From: Cryobacterium algoricola
GTDB taxonomy: Bacteria; Actinomycetota; Actinomycetes; Actinomycetales; Microbacteriaceae
Assembly (NCBI RefSeq): GCF_004402485.1
Contig: NZ_SOFG01000004.1
Coordinates: 1-64,000, forward strand
Length of the DNA: 64,000 nt
Reading direction: 5' to 3'
Part shown: one piece after another, positions 3,265-9,738 of the stretch
Numbering within the stretch: position 1 is the stretch's first letter
Layout of the letters: each line of letters starts with the position of its first letter
Notes under the pieces: generated by a model
The model's database searches: none
Told to the model about the DNA's origin: nothing
What the model saw: the letters and a program-made list of their open reading frames with translations, nothing else
Program-made: the position numbers and the translations under genes

Positions 3265-3408
3265 TTAACCGTGATGTTTGGCGAGTCGGTACATCGTCCA
3301 GTTCAGGCTCAGGAAGCGAACGAACTGCTGGACGAGGTTGCTCCGGCGTCGCAGCTCGCGCATTCCCGGAAGCGGTGCCATATCGATTCGAGCCTGGGCG
3401 TTATCCAT
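3265..3408 (-). CDS. 47-residue basic micro-protein downstream of the SQR-like gene
   Basis: The small frame begins MDNAQARIDMAPLPGMRELR and ends with SLNWTMYRLAKHHG. It is rich in Arg and has an amphipathic C-terminal half. It starts about 33 bases after the stop of the SQR-like gene on the same strand, so it is very likely co-transcribed. It has no recognised family. It could be a membrane-associated partner of the flavoprotein. The protein-like composition and operon position support coding; no homology could be tested here. Confidence 0.55.
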   Translation of the reverse strand: MDNAQARIDMAPLPGMRELRRRSNLVQQFVRFLSLNWTMYRLAKHHG

Positions 3409-3441
3409 GCTGGTCTCCGTTGATCGTGTCGTTGAGGCGGG

Positions 3442-4905
3442 CTATTCGGGGATGAGGTACCAGAGCGGGTAGGCCTTGGCCTTGTAGATGAACAGGGTGT
3501 GCAGCATCCGTTTCACCCAGTGCGCTGCGAGTCCGATGTCGCCGGTCGTCTCCTGGGGATCCCGGCCTGCCGTGTCCGGGTGCCGGGAGTGGTCCGGCAC
3601 GATGGGCGACATCGACATGGCCGCCGCAGTGCCAGAGAGCATGCCCGTGCCCGTCGAGGCGATGCACGCCGCGGCCATCTCGCCCATCGAGGCCGTGTGG
3701 GTCGGTTCGGGGGAGCCGTGCAGGATCATGTCGGAAATGGTCATTGCCACTGCCTTGCCCATCGAGCCTGAGGGCATGCCGGTGCGGGGCGGGGCCGGGG
3801 CAACCAGTACGCCGTCGGGGGTCGCATAGGGCCGGGAAATCGCGTGGGGTGGGGCAAACGCGATCCCGATTCCGAACACGTTGTGGTGCAGCGGGGTCTG
3901 GTAGGTCCTGGGCCAGTCCTGCGCCGTCCACTGGTCGAAGGGTTTTGCTTCGTAGTTCGCGTCGACCCGCATGAACCCGCTGGGGGCGAAGATCGAATCC
4001 GTGATGTCTGTTCCGTCCCGGTCGAAGGCCTCAAGGTTCACGCCGCGGAACGGTGGGAGAAGCATGGCGAAATCGAAGGGCTGGGCGTTGTCCGTGCCGT
4101 CGATCTGCCGGTAGTGGATGAGGCCGGGTTCGATCTTGGTGACCGCGGCCTGGGTGATCGCCTTCATCTTCCGTTCGCGGAAGAGCGACTCCATCCACGC
4201 CTCGCTCGTGATCCTGTGGTCGCCCTGGCTGAAGGTCATTCCGCCGACGCCGAAATCGCCCAGCTCATGCTCGTTGGTCAGGTAGATGACCTCGGCCCGT
4301 TCCCGGACCCCTGCCGCTCGCAGTTCATGTTCAACATTGAAGGCATACTCGAACGCCGCTCCCTCGCAGGTACAGGTGCCGTGGCCCACTCCGATCACCA
4401 GGGTTTGCCGGCGGCCGGTCTTCAGCGTCTCGATGACGGTGGCCAGGTGCTTCGCCGCGTCGACCGCGTGGCTGGGCGTGCAGACCGACACGGTGTGACC
4501 GGCATCCGGGCCGAGCCCCGGGGTCGCCTCGAAGTTCAGCCGGGGGCCCGTCGCGTTAATAAGGTAGTCATAGCGGATGCGCTCGGTCTTGCCGGCCCGC
4601 TTCGGGTCCGTGTACACTACATCCACGGCTCCGCGGGGGCTGTCGGCATCCCCGTTCGGCCGCAGTGCGACGGCGTTGGCCTGGCGGAAGACGATCTTCT
4701 TCCGCCGGTAGATCGGGGCGAGCGGGAAGACCACCTTGTCGGGGCTCATTTTGCCGACACCGACCCAGATATTCGAGGGGATCCAGTTCCAGTTCGAGTT
4801 CGGAGACACCATCACGACCTCGTGGTTTCTGCCTAGACGCCGCTTCAGGAATAGTGCTGCGGTGTGTCCGGAAACCCCGGCTCCCAGAATGACGACTCGT
4901 GCCAT
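3442..4905 (-). CDS. SQR-like FAD-dependent sulfide:quinone oxidoreductase family protein
   Basis: A 487-residue flavoprotein starting at the ATG with a GAGGGG site upstream. MARVVILGAGVSGHTAALFL carries the N-terminal FAD-binding GxGxxG motif; a second nucleotide-binding region and Cys-containing segments (GTCTCEGAA, VCTPSHAVD, AACIAS) follow. The C-terminus (FIYKAKAYPLWYLIPE) is amphipathic, as in membrane-attached SQR/NDH-2 type enzymes. SQR oxidises sulfide to persulfide/polysulfide and passes electrons to quinone. Two CsoR/CstR-like palindromes lie in its upstream region, and thioredoxin and DsrE genes with the same operator are nearby, which supports a sulfide/persulfide role. A generic NADH or other flavoprotein function cannot be excluded. 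Confidence 0.75.
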   Translation of the reverse strand: MARVVILGAGVSGHTAALFLKRRLGRNHEVVMVSPNSNWNWIPSNIWVGVGKMSPDKVVFPLAPIYRRKKIVFRQANAVALRPNGDADSPRGAVDVVYTDPKRAGKTERIRYDYLINATGPRLNFEATPGLGPDAGHTVSVCTPSHAVDAAKHLATVIETLKTGRRQTLVIGVGHGTCTCEGAAFEYAFNVEHELRAAGVRERAEVIYLTNEHELGDFGVGGMTFSQGDHRITSEAWMESLFRERKMKAITQAAVTKIEPGLIHYRQIDGTDNAQPFDFAMLLPPFRGVNLEAFDRDGTDITDSIFAPSGFMRVDANYEAKPFDQWTAQDWPRTYQTPLHHNVFGIGIAFAPPHAISRPYATPDGVLVAPAPPRTGMPSGSMGKAVAMTISDMILHGSPEPTHTASMGEMAAACIASTGTGMLSGTAAAMSMSPIVPDHSRHPDTAGRDPQETTGDIGLAAHWVKRMLHTLFIYKAKAYPLWYLIPE

Positions 4906-4956
4906 GTCAGACCCCTCAATCCCAGCATCCATGCTGATAATCCGAACCATACTCCT

Positions 4957-4972
4957 ATACCTCAGGGGGTAT
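4957..4972. promoter_or_regulatory. CsoR/CstR-like operator upstream of the SQR-like gene (site 1)
   Basis: The 16-bp pseudopalindrome ATACCTCAGGGGGTAT lies 52 bases upstream of the SQR-like ATG, within its expected promoter. It shares the arms ATACC and GGGTAT with three other sites in the window (4992, 8575, 8689). CsoR-family repressors (Cu, or persulfide for CstR) bind A/T-flanked G-tract palindromes of this kind. No repressor gene is present in the window. Confidence 0.65.
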
Positions 4973-4991
4973 TGCATCCGACATGAAGAAG

Positions 4992-5007
4992 ATACCGAAG
5001 GGGGTAT
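4992..5007. promoter_or_regulatory. CsoR/CstR-like operator upstream of the SQR-like gene (site 2)
   Basis: ATACCGAAGGGGGTAT, same spacing and outer bases as the site at 4957, with start positions 35 bp apart. Two sites at one promoter would allow two repressor tetramers to bind cooperatively. Confidence 0.65.
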
Positions 5008-5102
5008 AAGGTGCCCTGTCGGCGGCGGCAGCGGCAGCATCGACGGGCCTCGCGATCGTGACGACCCCGTAGTGTCGCTGTCGGCCTATCGCGGGCAGGA
5101 GA

Positions 5103-5133
5103 GAGGGGCGCCCACGGTTCGTGGGCGCCCCTC
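5103..5133 (-). terminator. Rho-independent-type hairpin after the DUF2202 gene
   Basis: A perfect 14-bp GC-rich stem (GAGGGGCGCCCACG / CGTGGGCGCCCCTC) with loop GTT lies 16 bases beyond the stop codon of the minus-strand DUF2202 gene. No long U-tract follows, as is common in high-GC actinobacteria. Confidence 0.8.
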
Positions 5134-5148
5134 CACCGTCTGTCTGTG

Positions 5149-5925
5149 TCAGCGACCGAAGGCGGTCAAGTGGTGCTGCGAGGCAGTGAGCAGGTGCTCG
5201 TAGACCGCGAGCACGTCGGGAGCGGTCACGCCGGCCTTGGCCGTCGTCAGGTCGGCGATGTCGGCCGTCTCGACCGTGCGGGCCGCTTCCCTGGCAGCGT
5301 CCAGGCTCGCCGAGCCTTGTGCGAGCAGGGTGTCGTAGAGCTTCTGGCTGGCATCGGTCGGGAACTTTCCGACCTCGAGGCCGACGGTGGGGTCTGTGAT
5401 GCTGTAGCGCTCCAGGAGCGTACGAACCGCTTCCAGGTGCATCGTCTCCGACCGGGCGATGCGGCTGAAGACCGTCGCGTCGTACTTCTCGGCGAAGGCG
5501 ACGTACAGGTCATGGGCCAGCTTCTCCTCCGCCGCCATGGCGGTGAGGCTGGCTTTCTGGTCATCGGTGATCGTGCCGCTGGCCACGTCGGCGAGTCCGC
5601 TGCCCATGCCCACGCCCATGCCCATGCCCAGACCGGTACCGCCGCCGCCCTGCATACCGGTACCGCTGCCTGCGCCCATTCCTGCGCCCATTCCGTCGCC
5701 CATTCCGTCGCCCATTCCGTCGCCCATTCCGGTGACGGTTCCCGTTCCGCTGCCCATCCGGTTCATGTTCCCGGTGTGGGTGGAGGGCTGGCTGCTGGAT
5801 GCGGTGGGCCCGGTGCCCTGCGCGTCGCCGCCGCGGTTCATGGCGGCGATGCTCGGTGTGGCGATCAGTGCGGTGATGACCACTCCGCTGGCGATCGCCG
5901 TGGTGATAATGCTTCTCCTGCGCAT
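5149..5925 (-). CDS. Exported DUF2202 ferritin-like protein with Gly-Met repeats
   Basis: 258 residues, AAGGAG site upstream of the ATG. The N-terminus MRRRSIITTAIASGVVITAL is a signal peptide or anchor. A Ser/Thr/Gly-rich linker is followed at about 65-110 by tetrapeptide repeats (GMGD, GMGA, GMGV), encoded by 12-bp tandem repeats. The C-terminal half has ferritin-like helices: AAEEKLAHDLY, ARSETMHLEAV, VETADIADL, ASQHHLTAF. DUF2202 proteins are four-helix-bundle proteins of unknown function with potential metal ligands. Met-rich repeats in exported proteins often bind Cu(I)/Ag(I). It is divergent from the response regulator/kinase pair, whose sensor carries the same repeat type, so it is a likely target of that system. 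Confidence 0.85.
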   Translation of the reverse strand: MRRRSIITTAIASGVVITALIATPSIAAMNRGGDAQGTGPTASSSQPSTHTGNMNRMGSGTGTVTGMGDGMGDGMGDGMGAGMGAGSGTGMQGGGGTGLGMGMGVGMGSGLADVASGTITDDQKASLTAMAAEEKLAHDLYVAFAEKYDATVFSRIARSETMHLEAVRTLLERYSITDPTVGLEVGKFPTDASQKLYDTLLAQGSASLDAAREAARTVETADIADLTTAKAGVTAPDVLAVYEHLLTASQHHLTAFGR

Positions 5926-6066
5926 GATGTGCTCCTTCGAATTGTGGATCGTTGCTACCTACACGCTCTCGCCCGGGTGTGCAGGGGGTCTGCCGGGGGT
6001 GTGGAGATCCCGTGGAGAAGTCTTGGCCACGGCTTCCGGAGCCGTCCTGACGCATAGTGTGAAGTC

Positions 6067-6756
6067 ATGTCAACAGTGCTGGTCGTCGAGGACGAACGTG
6101 ATATCAGGGACGTGCTCCGTCGGTATCTGGAACGAGCCGGATTGTCTGTGCTCACGACCGGGTCGGGAGCGGAGGCGCTCAGTTTGCTCCACTCGGCCGA
6201 CCTCGTACTCCTTGACCTGGGCCTTCCCGACATCGACGGCACCGACATTCTCCGGGAGGTCCACGGAATGCAGAATCTTCCCGTGATCGTCCTCACTGCC
6301 CGAAGCGCCACCGAGGATCGAATCCACGGGCTCGAGCTGGGAGCGGACGATTACGTGACCAAACCCTTCAGCCCTGCCGAGGTGGTCCTTCGGGTTCAGG
6401 CCGTCCTGCACCGTTACACCGGACTCCCCGGAGAGCCCGGCCCGGTCACCTACGGCAACCGGCGGCTCCGCATCGACGAGGGCTCCCACAAAGCCTGGCT
6501 GGACGGAAGCCTGCTCGATCTGACCCCGACCGAATGGGCACTCCTGGCCGCCGTCGCTGCCGCACCGGGACGGGCGTACTCGCGATACGAACTGGTCAAC
6601 CGGGTGCGCGGCTACGAGTACGCAGGGTACGAACGCACCATCGACTCCCACATCAAGAACCTCCGGCGCAAGCTCGGTGCATCGGGGGCGGACGTCCTGG
6701 AGACGGTCCTCGGCGTCGGCTACCGCCTCGGGCTCCGTCGGGACGATGCGTCATGA
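6067..6756 (+). CDS. OmpR-family response regulator
   Basis: 229 residues. The receiver domain (about 1-115) contains the acidic pocket EDE at 8-10, phospho-acceptor Asp50 (LVLLDLGLPDIDG), Thr in VLTARS and Lys in DDYVTKPFSP. A winged-helix output domain follows (TPTEWALLAAVAAAPGRAYS...RTIDSHIKNLRRKLG). Its stop overlaps the kinase start (ATGA), so the pair is translationally coupled. It is transcribed away from the DUF2202 gene across a 141-bp intergenic region that probably contains its binding sites. Confidence 0.9.
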   Translation: MSTVLVVEDERDIRDVLRRYLERAGLSVLTTGSGAEALSLLHSADLVLLDLGLPDIDGTDILREVHGMQNLPVIVLTARSATEDRIHGLELGADDYVTKPFSPAEVVLRVQAVLHRYTGLPGEPGPVTYGNRRLRIDEGSHKAWLDGSLLDLTPTEWALLAAVAAAPGRAYSRYELVNRVRGYEYAGYERTIDSHIKNLRRKLGASGADVLETVLGVGYRLGLRRDDAS

Positions 6757-8159
6757 CGACCCGCGGTTTCGGCCTCGGCCCGCTCGGGCGTCGCTTTCTG
6801 GTCGCCTTCATCCTGGTCGCGGTGTCATCGGTGGCCGTGCTCACCGGCGCCGCCCTGGTTGGTGTCGATCGCGGAGTGCAGGTTTCCCAGCAGGCCGACC
6901 GTGAACGGGTAGTTGCGGCCGCGGCCGCTGCGGCCGCCGACGCCTACTGGCAGGCAGCCGGATGGGGACAGGCCGATCTGGGCCGTGCCTTCGCCATCGG
7001 CGAAGCGGCATCGGCCCGGCTGGCCATTCTCGACGCGAACGGAACCACGGTACAGTCCAGCGCTGACGGCAGCGGGAATTCCAACAGCCCGGGGATGGGC
7101 CAGGGAATGGGCCAGGGAATGGGCCAGGGAATGGGTCAGGGGTCCGGAATGGGTCAGACGGTCGTATCGACGCCGATCATCAGTGACGGCAGCCAGGTCG
7201 GCACCGTCCGGATGAACTTCGGCGCCATGGCCGCAACGCAGGTCATCGACGTGGCCTGGTCCTGGATCGCCGTGGCCGCCATCGTTGCCCTTGTCATGGC
7301 ACTCGGCGCGAGCTTCCTCGTCACGCGCCTCCTCGTCCGGCCCATCCAGGCGATCACCGAAGCGGCACGATCTTTCACGGCGGGCGACCGGAAATCGCGT
7401 GCCACGGGTCCCGGCCCGGGGGAGCTCGGTGAGCTCGCCGTTGCATTCAACGGCATGGCGGATGCTGTCGTGCGGTCCGATCTGGATCGGCGCAACCTGA
7501 CGGCCGACGTGGCTCACGAACTGCGGACCCCGTTGGCGGCCTTGCAGGCCGGGCTGGAGGAACTGCGCGACGGACTGGTGCAGCCAACTCCGGAAGGCCT
7601 CGCCGGACTGCACGACCAGTCGCTGCGCCTGGGCCGGGTGGTGGCCGATCTGGCCGAACTCTCGGCGGTGGAAACCGCTGGACTCTCCCTGCGCCTCGCC
7701 TCCATCGACCTGGCGCAGATCGCCCGCGACGAATGCGCCCTCCGGGAACCGCAACTGCGGGCAGCGGAACTGAACGTGACCGTCAAGTCGGGCGAGCCAG
7801 CATTCGTGCGAGCGGATGCCGACCGACTGCACCAAGCTGTCGGAAATCTCCTGGCCAACGCCGCCCGATATTGCCGGCCGGGCGACACCGTGACCGTCAC
7901 GAGCGCGGTCGAAAACGGTCACGCGGTGCTCCAGGTTGCTGACACCGGCCCGGGCATCCCGCCGGACGAACTCCCGCACATCTTCGACCGTCTCTGGCGG
8001 GGCCGTGCGGCGGAGCAGGTCACCGGCTCCGGCATCGGCCTGGCTGTGGTGCGCGAAATCGTCAGCAGCCACGGCGGGACCATCCACGCGACATCCGAGC
8101 CCGGCGAGGGGACCACCATCACCATCCGGCTGCCCGCCACGGGTGCTACCCCAGGCTAG
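6753..8159 (+). CDS. Sensor histidine kinase with Met-rich extracytoplasmic domain
   Basis: 468 residues. A membrane helix lies at about 14-37 and an extracytoplasmic sensor at 38-168 containing GMGQ tetrapeptides at 114-135. A second membrane helix (about 169-190), a HAMP linker, HisKA with DVAHELRTPLAAL and HATPase motifs NLLANAARYC, DTGPGIPPDE and GSGIGLAV follow. It phosphorylates the regulator encoded just upstream. The Gly-Met repeats lie in the ligand-exposed domain and match those of the divergent DUF2202 protein, which suggests that soft metal ions (Cu/Ag) or oxidants acting on Met are sensed. This is an inference. Confidence 0.9.
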   Translation: MTTRGFGLGPLGRRFLVAFILVAVSSVAVLTGAALVGVDRGVQVSQQADRERVVAAAAAAAADAYWQAAGWGQADLGRAFAIGEAASARLAILDANGTTVQSSADGSGNSNSPGMGQGMGQGMGQGMGQGSGMGQTVVSTPIISDGSQVGTVRMNFGAMAATQVIDVAWSWIAVAAIVALVMALGASFLVTRLLVRPIQAITEAARSFTAGDRKSRATGPGPGELGELAVAFNGMADAVVRSDLDRRNLTADVAHELRTPLAALQAGLEELRDGLVQPTPEGLAGLHDQSLRLGRVVADLAELSAVETAGLSLRLASIDLAQIARDECALREPQLRAAELNVTVKSGEPAFVRADADRLHQAVGNLLANAARYCRPGDTVTVTSAVENGHAVLQVADTGPGIPPDELPHIFDRLWRGRAAEQVTGSGIGLAVVREIVSSHGGTIHATSEPGEGTTITIRLPATGATPG

Positions 8160-8194
8160 GGCCGGCGCGGTCGAACAGTGCTCCGTTCGTCAGC

Positions 8195-8563
8195 TCACGC
8201 CGAGGTTTGCCGGGCGGCAATGCTGGCGCGAACGGCCTCCATGTCCAGAGCCTGAACGCCGGCGATCACCTCGTCCAGGGATGAGGCGTTGAGCGCTCCG
8301 GGCTGGGAGAACACAAGGACCTTGTCCCGGAACGCCATCAGGGTGGGAATGGAGCGAATGCCGGCAGCAGCGGCCAGGCCCTGTTCTGCTTCAGTATCGA
8401 CCTTCCCGAAGACGATCTCGGGGTGCTTGTCCGAAGCTGCGGTAAAGGTCGGCGCGAACATGCGACACGGGCCGCACCAGCCGGCCCAGAAATCCACGAA
8501 CACGATGCTGTTGTCGGTGATGATCTCGTCGAAAGTCTTTTCGGTGATGTCAGTGGTAGCCAT
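8195..8563 (-). CDS. Thioredoxin
   Basis: 122 residues with the redox motif WCGPC (Cys30, Cys33) in VDFWAGWCGPCRM and the cis-proline region IRSIPTLMAF. It is a cytosolic disulfide and persulfide reductase. The ATG at 8563 is preferred over the upstream in-frame start because promoter elements overlap that upstream region. There is no ribosome site; a -10-like TATATT ends 8 bases before the ATG, so the message is probably leaderless. The CsoR/CstR-like operator fills the -10/-35 spacer, linking it to the SQR and DsrE genes. Confidence 0.9.
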   Translation of the reverse strand: MATTDITEKTFDEIITDNSIVFVDFWAGWCGPCRMFAPTFTAASDKHPEIVFGKVDTEAEQGLAAAAGIRSIPTLMAFRDKVLVFSQPGALNASSLDEVIAGVQALDMEAVRASIAARQTSA

Positions 8564-8571
8564 GCAACAAG

Positions 8572-8599
8572 AATATACCCCATAGGGTATTGCACTCAA
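8572..8599 (-). promoter_or_regulatory. Thioredoxin promoter with embedded CsoR/CstR-like operator
   Basis: On the minus strand TTGAGT (8594-8599) and TATATT (8572-8577) are separated by 16 bases. The perfect-armed palindrome ATACCCCATAGGGTAT (8575-8590) occupies the spacer and part of the -10, an ideal place for repression. Confidence 0.65.
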
Positions 8600-8688
8600 G
8601 GGAGTCAAGCGCTCCACGCGCGTGCCTCCGGAGGAGCCCGCCCTTGCAAAAAGATACCCCTCACAAGAATACCCAGTACCGAATAGAA

Positions 8689-8704
8689 ATACCCCATAGG
8701 GTAT
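8689..8704. promoter_or_regulatory. CsoR/CstR-like operator before the membrane protein/DsrE genes
   Basis: This 16-mer, ATACCCCATAGGGTAT, is identical to the one in the thioredoxin promoter and lies 49 bases before the ATG at 8753. Two further half-sites (ATACCCC at 8654, ATACCC at 8669) precede it. It probably controls the plus-strand pair. Confidence 0.65.
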
Positions 8705-8752
8705 TAGTGCAGTTCTCTCGGATCTCCCTTCCTACCTGTGATGAGGCCAGCT

Positions 8753-9340
8753 ATGCAGAACAGACGAACGGTCGGCGCAGACCCGAAGCGGGGGACAGCG
8801 AGACGGCTGGTCGATTCCGTCCTGATTGCGGGCGGGTCCCTCCGCCGCTGGCCGGCCCGTCGTCGACTGATCGTCGCCGCCGTCGCCGGGATGGTGCTGG
8901 TCGGACTGGCGCTCGCAGCGGGAACCGTGGCTTTCGTCGACGGGTCCCTGGTGTTCCCCGGTCCTTGGTGGGTGGATGCGGTCACGGTCCTGGGTGCCGG
9001 ACTGATCGGTCTGGTCGTGGCCAGCTACGTCGATGCGCCCATCGGTGCGGATGCCACCCTGTGCGACCTGCGCTGGCCGGCGCTCGGCCTGATCTCGCTT
9101 TATCTGTCGACCGATCTGCGCACCGCCGTGCCTTTGCTCGAGCCGGGCATTCGTCCTGTCGTCAGCGTCGCGGCGATCGCGTTGTTGGTCTGGGCTTTGC
9201 TGGCACGGCTGCACAGCGAACACAAGGCAACACGTAGCCAGCGCCGGTCAGGTGCGCCAGGCGACATCGACGGCACCGAAGATGGCGAAGTATGCACGAC
9301 ATGCCGCCCGTTGTTCCCGAGAGCCGGCGGCCGTCCGTGA
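8753..9340 (+). CDS. Unknown four-helix membrane protein with terminal CxxC
   Basis: 195 residues from the ATG at 8753, chosen because GAGG lies 6 bases upstream; GTG 8738 and ATG 8741 are alternatives. A basic N-terminus precedes hydrophobic segments LIVAAVAGMVLVGLALAAG, the VDAVTVLGAGLIGLVVASYV region, LRWPALGLISLYLST and VVSVAAIALLVWALLARL. The soluble tail ends with VCTTCRPLFPRAGGRP. I recognise no family. Its operator and the overlapping DsrE gene suggest a role in membrane sulfur or metal handling; the CxxC could be a redox or ligand site. Confidence 0.75.
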   Translation: MQNRRTVGADPKRGTARRLVDSVLIAGGSLRRWPARRRLIVAAVAGMVLVGLALAAGTVAFVDGSLVFPGPWWVDAVTVLGAGLIGLVVASYVDAPIGADATLCDLRWPALGLISLYLSTDLRTAVPLLEPGIRPVVSVAAIALLVWALLARLHSEHKATRSQRRSGAPGDIDGTEDGEVCTTCRPLFPRAGGRP

Positions 9341-9738
9341 CGGAGGCGGGGACAGCCGACGACATGGAGCCTAACGGTGGCGGCCACGGTCAAGCAGTGA
9401 CCAGTGCTGGGCTCGTCCTGCACGTCAGCGGCGCCGATGCGACCCTGATCCAGGGCGGCATCCGATCCGCGCTCAACGCCCGCGCCCAACTCCCGACGCT
9501 CGCGATCGAGATCGTGGTCCAGGGCCCGGTGGTGTTGTTTTTGCGCGCGGGATCGGTCCTGGAACCAGCCCTGACCGAGCTCGCTGCAACGCCCGTGCGG
9601 GTGCTGTCCTGCCAGAACAGCATGCGGTCTGTCGGGCTGGATGCTGCTGATCTGCTTCCGAGTGTGTCAGTCGTCCCTGCGGCTGTCGCTCATCTGACCG
9701 TTCGGCAGTTCAAGGGCTGGGCGTACATCCGCGTGTGA
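9292..9738 (+). CDS. DsrE/DsrF-family sulfur-relay-like protein
   Basis: 148 residues from the first ATG; ATG 9364 is an alternative that would remove the overlap with the previous gene. The fold-bearing part is SAGLVLHVSGADATLIQGGI to the C-terminal GWAYIRV, with conserved Cys107 in VRVLSCQNSMRSVGLDAADLLP. This is the pattern of DsrE-like proteins, where the Cys can carry persulfide. Its position with SQR, thioredoxin and shared operators fits persulfide trafficking. The last 72 bases overlap the convergent lgt gene. Confidence 0.8.
   Translation: MHDMPPVVPESRRPSVTEAGTADDMEPNGGGHGQAVTSAGLVLHVSGADATLIQGGIRSALNARAQLPTLAIEIVVQGPVVLFLRAGSVLEPALTELAATPVRVLSCQNSMRSVGLDAADLLPSVSVVPAAVAHLTVRQFKGWAYIRV

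Follow-up and report, generated by a model that had tools for sequence, protein, structure and literature searches.

We analyzed a 64,000-nucleotide (nt) stretch of the Cryobacterium algoricola genome (contig NZ_SOFG01000004.1, positions 1 to 64,000; hereafter, the window), in which a relative of sulfide:quinone reductase (SQR), a microprotein of 47 amino acids (aa), a thioredoxin, and a membrane protein paired with a DsrE-family protein are accompanied by four 16-bp pseudopalindromes. An initial annotation of this DNA had grouped these genes into a candidate persulfide/copper regulon under a repressor of the CsoR family, which includes the persulfide sensor CstR. The features in question are as follows.

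3265..3408, minus strand: conserved microprotein, 47 aa, just 3' of the SQR gene, with GGAG 6 nt before its ATG; assigned by profile and by the ratio of nonsynonymous to synonymous substitution rates (dN/dS)
3442..4905, minus strand: SQR relative, 487 aa; matches SQRs in the PDB at 2e-36 and, by profile, at 1e-42; seven-sequence alignment
4957..4972, unstranded: putative 16-bp operator ATACCTCAGGGGGTAT, the proximal SQR-promoter site; motif scans, with the tandem layout kept in Cryobacterium loci L181 and L182
4992..5007, unstranded: putative 16-bp operator ATACCGAAGGGGGTAT, the distal SQR-promoter site; genome and window motif scans
8195..8563, minus strand: thioredoxin (WCGPC), 122 aa; PF00085 at 1.7e-23 on a longer open reading frame (ORF), and TIGR01068 at 95.3 bits against a cut-off of 96.8
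8572..8599, minus strand: promoter-like TTGAGT-N16-TATATT enclosing the thioredoxin operator; 1 found against 0.1 expected, a consensus match only
8575..8590, unstranded: putative 16-bp operator ATACCCCATAGGGTAT at the thioredoxin promoter; motif scans, overlapping the promoter-like match
8689..8704, unstranded: putative 16-bp operator ATACCCCATAGGGTAT, 5' of the membrane protein/DsrE pair; motif scans
8738..9340, plus strand: membrane protein with Cys in CDLR and in a C-terminal GEVCTTCRPLF tail; three Cys in common with three relatives
9292..9738, plus strand: DsrE-family protein with Cys in CQNSMR; PF02635 at 4.2e-5 and 1l1s at 1.5e-14, with the Cys aligned

The four pseudopalindromes that the initial annotation described at 4957, 4992, 8575, and 8689 were confirmed, including the identity of the last two. 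All are 16 bp long and of the form ATACC-N6-GGTAT, and 100 dinucleotide-preserving shuffles of the window yielded no occurrence of ATACC-N5/6-GGGTAT. They lie 51 and 86 bp 5' of the SQR ATG, 11 bp 5' of the thioredoxin ATG, and 33 bp 5' of the GTG of the membrane protein gene. In the sole promoter-like match there, the 8575 site overlaps half of the second hexamer and the greater part of the spacer, a position where a repressor would be expected to act. The same palindrome also scored as terminator-like in the same promoter/terminator scan (1 found, 0.1 expected), which returned no promoter-like match at the SQR operator sites. Additional half-sites, ATACCCCTCAC and AATACCCAGTACC, occur at 8653-8680, between the two operators of the intergenic region shared by the thioredoxin and membrane protein genes.

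Across the genome (4.15 Mb in 27 contigs), ATACC-N5/6-GGTAT occurs at seven places, all in the 16-bp form, against one for a reversed-pattern control, so the motif is rare rather than frequent and random. Permitting one mismatch in the 16-bp form gives 35 places against 10 in the control, and because this excess is weaker, high specificity is limited to the exact form. Two of the seven strict sites belong to the SQR gene, one to the thioredoxin gene, and one to the membrane protein/DsrE pair. Another (C24:29292) lies 5' of a gene with the Pfam domains of a CoA-disulfide reductase (CoADR) and a rhodanese (Rhd), after which come a rhodanese-like ORF and cstR, a CsoR-family gene. The site at C14:191210 precedes a gene for an 848-aa CoADR-Rhd-TusA-DsrE fusion (Pfam domains; L013 7350-9896), which thereby has one exact and one near 16-bp operator, the latter being a one-mismatch site 73 bp on (C14:191283) and the one that we take as real among the genome's 28 one-mismatch sites. 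Inspection of the loci at C13:36566 and C12:20242 convinced us of neither as an operator; C12:20196 and C14:7001 are also one-mismatch sites inside loci examined. The seventh strict site (C14:8258), 5' of an MFS transporter gene (L012 8304-9602), is probably real because the 76% identical homologue in sister genome G078 (L140) also has a 16-bp site, which it shares with a divergent rhodanese-like gene. We recognized no copper export or chaperone genes adjoining the seven strict 16-bp sites, whereas 17-bp sites do adjoin such genes.

Two genes of the genome encode PF02583 proteins. The first, cstR, lies on a different contig from the window, in the operon preceded by the 16-bp site at C24:29292. 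Its product matches PF02583 at 77.1 bits in the genome search (76.6 bits versus a cut-off of 22.8), and its Cys pair (68 and 97 of the fragment read, 29 apart) aligns with that of 7mq3. The second PF02583 protein, a copper-type CsoR, has identical Cys spacing (29), so the spacing alone cannot separate the two. In CsoR, the His four residues before the second Cys is a copper ligand; the CstR-like protein has Ala in its place. This A...C pattern recurs in 24 of 30 CstR loci (the other six are unmatched by the pattern), and H...C is found in all 30 CsoR loci compared. The best PDB matches of the CstR-like protein are 7mq3 and 7mq1, which their depositors named CsoR and which we take to be pneumococcal CstR; both Cys are aligned in the alignments shown. 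We label the gene CstR-like and predict for its product the persulfide reaction and DNA release known for homologues.

The copper-type csoR shows the H...C pattern, has two 17-bp sites 5' of it, and is followed by HMA (copZ-type) and P-type ATPase (copA-type) genes. The genome's third 17-bp site lies 5' of a gene for a 710-aa P-type ATPase, probably a copper exporter judging from its His/Met-rich start and its neighbors. The presence of this CsoR paralogue (142 bits against the NCBIfam RicR copper model, under the cut-off of 175) lends some weight to the reading that the window sites belong to copper CsoR and that the genes form a copper response guarding thiols, as do the likeness of the two paralogues' operators and the Met-rich DUF2202 protein and two-component system with a Met-rich sensor stretch encoded between the window sites. 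We rejected copper control of the four sites as the main reading because the operators of the CsoR paralogue are 17 bp and those of the window are all 16 bp. The comparisons across genomes that follow make it highly improbable.

We surveyed 199 genomes of the family for the motif (ATACCC-N4-GGGTAT) and for CstR (match at E <= 1e-9). The motif is present in 90 and CstR in 96, with 88 genomes holding both, 2 the motif only, 8 CstR only, and 101 neither, and the reversed-pattern control gave 0 in all rows shown. Because relatedness could inflate this link, it was also evaluated within genera: 69 of 73 genomes in the 25 genera mixed for CstR are concordant, a figure reached by none of 20,000 within-genus permutations. 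Among the 94 PF02583-positive genomes without a CstR match, the motif is absent from 92 and present in 2, which argues against copper CsoR as its reader. Spacing was compared between the 30 best copper-type matches for which loci were taken and 30 CstR loci. The CsoR loci carry the 17-bp site in 27 cases by a loose pattern (21 with exact ATACC/GGTAT) and the 16-bp site in one loose and no exact case, whereas the CstR loci carry the 16-bp site in 13 loose and 10 exact cases and the 17-bp site in none. Operator spacing, read from the sequences, separates predicted CstR targets (16 bp) from predicted CsoR targets (17 bp), with exceptions noted below. Such a one-base rule offers a simple means of sorting the targets of CsoR-family paralogues into persulfide and copper ones from genome sequence.

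To describe further targets, we tallied 77 distinct strict sites in the scanned loci, own genome included, of 216 counted across the family genomes. In this raw tally, made without a random-position control, 54 of the 77 adjoin a protein resembling the reference set of our genome: rhodanese (19), CoADR (17), CstR (11), thioredoxin (8), a Cys-rich 64-aa type (3), P-type ATPase, DUF2202, and SQR (2 each), and CsoR, MFS, and the membrane protein (1 each). The site at L050 does precede the membrane protein gene, with the tally figure computed on a wrong-frame ORF. The Cys-rich type refers to a 64-aa ORF, MCHAKTCKTCGKTTWAGCGQHVDQVMRG (L013 7011-7178), that diverges from the fusion gene, recurs at 3 of the 77 sites, and has no Pfam or NCBIfam match.

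The SQR relative has an FAD/NAD-linked reductase fold closest to SQR and candidates for all three catalytic Cys. Its Cys 142, 178, 180, and 414 are invariant in 7/7 aligned sequences; 142 and 178/180 clearly align with Cys of the solved SQRs (3sx6, 3sz0, 3hyv), and 414 aligns through a weak second segment. The catalytic Cys of the A. ferrooxidans enzyme are 128, 160, and 356. The solved enzymes share the FAD fold but have 430-437 aa, as opposed to the 487 aa of the window protein, whose kind is followed by the microprotein in all loci examined. Against NCBIfam SQR_III_seleno, the window protein scores 46 bits, far under the cut-off, and an AlphaFold model from the seven sequences was poor (pLDDT 47) and was not used. 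These comparisons support an SQR relative with predicted quinone-reducing activity.

A site lies 5' of SQR in four of the six other full-length orthologues of the family, and in G066, a one-mismatch site lies 5' of a fusion gene preceding SQR. A scan of named genomes found at least 557 SQR relatives, of which we used the best 80, ranging from Cryobacterium (87%) to Acidimicrobiaceae and mycobacteria. Seventy-five of these are titled actinobacteria, and five are metagenome-assembled genomes titled Acidobacteria (L197, L203, L225), Proteobacteria (L231), and Armatimonadetes (L237). Among the 78 loci with at least 280 upstream bases, 57 have an upstream operator by the loose pattern (0.8 expected from mononucleotide shuffling), and 52 have an exact 16-bp site. 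The flanks of the 80 loci contain matches to CstR in 40, to CoADR-Rhd in 36 (29 exceed 400 residues, and most others are of rhodanese size), and to thioredoxin in 16. The two closest Cryobacterium loci (L181 and L182) retain paired sites at -100/-66 and -101/-67, 34 bp apart as against 35 bp in the window, as well as the DUF2202, response-regulator, and kinase genes beside SQR.

Several observations weigh against CstR control of these genes. Eight of the 96 CstR genomes are without a strict motif, although three of them (G055, G139, G198) do have a CstR locus with 16-bp sites of a looser form. No site lies within the 1.5-kb flanks in 17 of the 30 CstR loci, where the promoter may fall outside the flank, as it does for our own cstR gene. 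There is no upstream site, even by the loose pattern, at 21 of the 78 SQR loci, and none at the GC-poor SQR locus of G157. No reference gene adjoins 23 of the 77 tallied sites; Pfam searches on six neighbors of these recovered cytochrome bd subunit I, NhaA, two OsmC, a YgaP-like membrane protein, and a molybdopterin oxidoreductase (sites at L129 2517, L089 1501, L086 1764, L111 1501, L102 1501, and L139 2485), suggesting a possible wider regulon that includes a terminal oxidase. Finally, G135 has a 16-bp site at its copper-type csoR, an exception to the spacing rule. The same site, along with the two family sites adjoining P-type ATPases and half-sites that are identical around spacers differing by one base, would suit cross-talk, in which both paralogues act on the sites in a joint persulfide/copper response. 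We consider this quite unlikely given how cleanly spacing sets CsoR loci apart from CstR loci and, in a study on Thermus, the little to no binding by the two paralogues of each other's sites (PMC10318464).

Taken together, the sites and genes very probably belong to a dispersed CstR-type persulfide regulon with 16-bp operators and a repressor encoded elsewhere in the genome, and the comparisons support SQR, thioredoxin, the membrane protein, and DsrE as its predicted members. The persulfide response put forward in the initial annotation thus gains support from the CstR-like gene, from the 16-bp sites at the cstR operon, fusion, and MFS genes, and from the joint occurrence of motif and CstR in the 199 genomes. 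The same annotation had placed the repressor outside the window and pointed to its Cys pattern, which agrees with a CstR-like gene on another contig whose product has two Cys and lacks the copper His. The copper half of the proposal did not hold, as the operator of the copper CsoR is a different one, 17 bp long, with sites at csoR-copZ-copA and at the P-type ATPase gene. A local motif thereby becomes a testable sulfide/persulfide-handling regulon for many Actinomycetota.

The initial annotation had also proposed the 47-aa ORF as an SQR partner. A profile of eight family members (A2) identified an ORF of the same kind directly 3' of SQR at all 80 named loci, which were chosen by SQR match and not by the microprotein (weakest E 2.9e-6 among 341 downstream ORFs). 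Within the 199 family genomes, the profile matches 10, namely, the nine SQR genomes and G003, whose weak match is interrupted by a stop and was rejected. Two of the nine are incomplete cases: G196 lies at a contig end, and in G193, SQR is matched over its C-terminal quarter only. In the latter (L049 around 6095-7000), the C-terminal 122 SQR residues match the query, and the microprotein that follows is still open. Compared with seven relatives, the window copy has a dN/dS of 0.14-0.38, indicating that the microprotein is under purifying selection. Family members are basic proteins of some 32-65 residues, with a core of APLPT..LR.R...Q..RF...N..M....GHH, a variable N-terminal half, and an aromatic-rich tail. 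Searches of Pfam and NCBIfam returned no match, either for the window copy (at E 0.001) or for four further members (at E 0.1), and a strictly SQR-linked microprotein without a model in either database is thus revealed.

The simplest interpretation of the microprotein is that of a dedicated partner of SQR, most likely acting in, e.g., membrane docking, stability, or persulfide hand-off. The ORF is very short, its N-terminal half varies, and the partnership is one that we infer, all of which would also suit an unrelated gene or RNA element merely riding in the operon; its presence at every SQR locus, its confinement to SQR genomes apart from one interrupted match, and selection on the protein itself make such a rider unlikely, though with a real residual chance. 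One point counts against docking in its plainest form: the tail is not more amphipathic than its shuffles (the median percentile is 0.79, and 2.5% of the 80 tails lie above 0.95), and a simple membrane-anchor helix is therefore unsupported. Tentatively, and with slightly less than even confidence, we propose that, in this clade, actinobacterial SQR works as an obligate two-component enzyme whose always-following microprotein is needed for membrane docking or persulfide release, and that both are placed in a scattered CstR regulon that a single spacer base alone separates from the response of the copper paralogue. If SQR does need the microprotein, this would bear on SQR access to quinone and on persulfide transfer. 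In the open-licence PMC literature, within the text available, we recognized no paper on a small partner of actinobacterial SQR or on an SQR microprotein.

The DsrE-family protein has the expected fold with one conserved Cys, and its gene overlaps the membrane protein gene, with which it probably forms one operon. The membrane protein and its three relatives have in common both the Cys of CDL and a GEVCxxC.PLF tail. Four genuine homologues were identified in other genomes of the family. Three of them are encoded directly at a 16-bp site or with one gene in between, which supports the earlier proposal of a new regulon member, and two of these three adjoin the gene of a rhodanese whose start resembles that of a lipoprotein. 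The fourth lies after a DsbD/CcdA-type gene, lacks a site by the pattern applied, and has GCPVCNK instead. A further apparent homologue in G177 was dropped, being a 41-residue match inside a histidine-kinase-like ORF. Class-wide, a profile of the membrane protein matches 30 of 394 genomes, own included. The 29 other loci encode CPVC (27), CPIC (1), or neither (1), and none has the tail CxxC, which makes the window protein, with one Cys in CDLR and a C-terminal-tail CxxC in place of CPVC, a cysteine-relocated variant of a CPVC membrane protein family of Actinomycetes. The company is similar as well: an exact 16-bp site occurs at 12 of the 29 loci, and CcdA (5), rhodanese (5), thioredoxin (3), and CstR (2) are found within 1.5 kb. 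The AlphaFold model is moderate (pLDDT 74, pTM 0.62) with five helices; it gave no Foldseek match at E <= 0.001, and no relative of known structure emerged from a profile search. We infer that the membrane protein may pass reductant between thioredoxin and the membrane.

In the model that we favor, a CstR-type repressor would bind 16-bp operators (TAC-X8-GTA with a G/C tract) at several promoters dispersed over the genome, and rising persulfide or polysulfide would modify its Cys pair and release it, as suggested by the Streptomyces and Staphylococcus homologues. SQR would then oxidize sulfide to sulfane sulfur, which rhodanese, TusA, DsrE, and CoADR domains would carry and reduce. Thioredoxin and the cysteine-bearing membrane protein may provide reductant or relay thiol equivalents at the membrane, and the 47-aa protein would most likely serve SQR.

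The operator and sensor type are already known, as precedents from Streptomyces coelicolor, Streptomyces lividans, Staphylococcus aureus, and Thermus are in print. In S. coelicolor, the CsoR-like SCO0620 (Cys37/Cys66) bound promoter fragments holding the 16-bp ATACCn6GGTAT in gel shifts and was released by polysulfide, and the motif is present twice at the pdo promoter (PMC7533328). That circuit (SCO0620 with PDO, TauE, and rhodanese) shares with ours a two-Cys repressor with 29-residue spacing, the same 16-bp operator, paired operators at one promoter, and a rhodanese target, but comprises four clustered genes, which its authors set apart from SQR-PDO circuits (PMC7533328). The C. algoricola sites are instead scattered over SQR and its microprotein, thioredoxin, the membrane protein/DsrE pair, the CoADR-Rhd fusions, and the MFS gene. 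S. aureus CstR, likewise a CsoR-like persulfide sensor (Cys pair C31/C60), controls cstA, cstB, and sqr and is believed to regulate a single operon directly (PMC5480029), in contrast to five separated operator regions in C. algoricola. The copper CsoR of S. lividans belongs to the same repressor family and recognizes a TAC/GTA dyad with G-tracts, but as TAC-X9-GTA (17 bp) at copper genes (PMC3902906), whereas the C. algoricola spacing is X8 (16 bp). The regulon is wider than described in the literature surveyed: in the available text of the open-licence PMC literature, we found no description of the scattered membership seen here. Its predicted new members are the SQR microprotein, which is the most novel part, and the membrane protein with relocated cysteines.

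Between the window operators, a response regulator gene (6067-6756, plus strand) is flanked by the DUF2202 gene (5149-5925, minus strand) and a histidine kinase gene (6753-8159, plus strand), and the products of the latter two share Met/Gly-rich repeats (MGDGMGDG/MGQGMGQG). A kinase with a similar Met-rich stretch is encoded on contig C19 (L261) beside a P-type ATPase with a 17-bp site, and by analogy, the window two-component pair may sense copper. DUF2202 homologues with a 16-bp site occur in G128 and G032 (L131 and L145).

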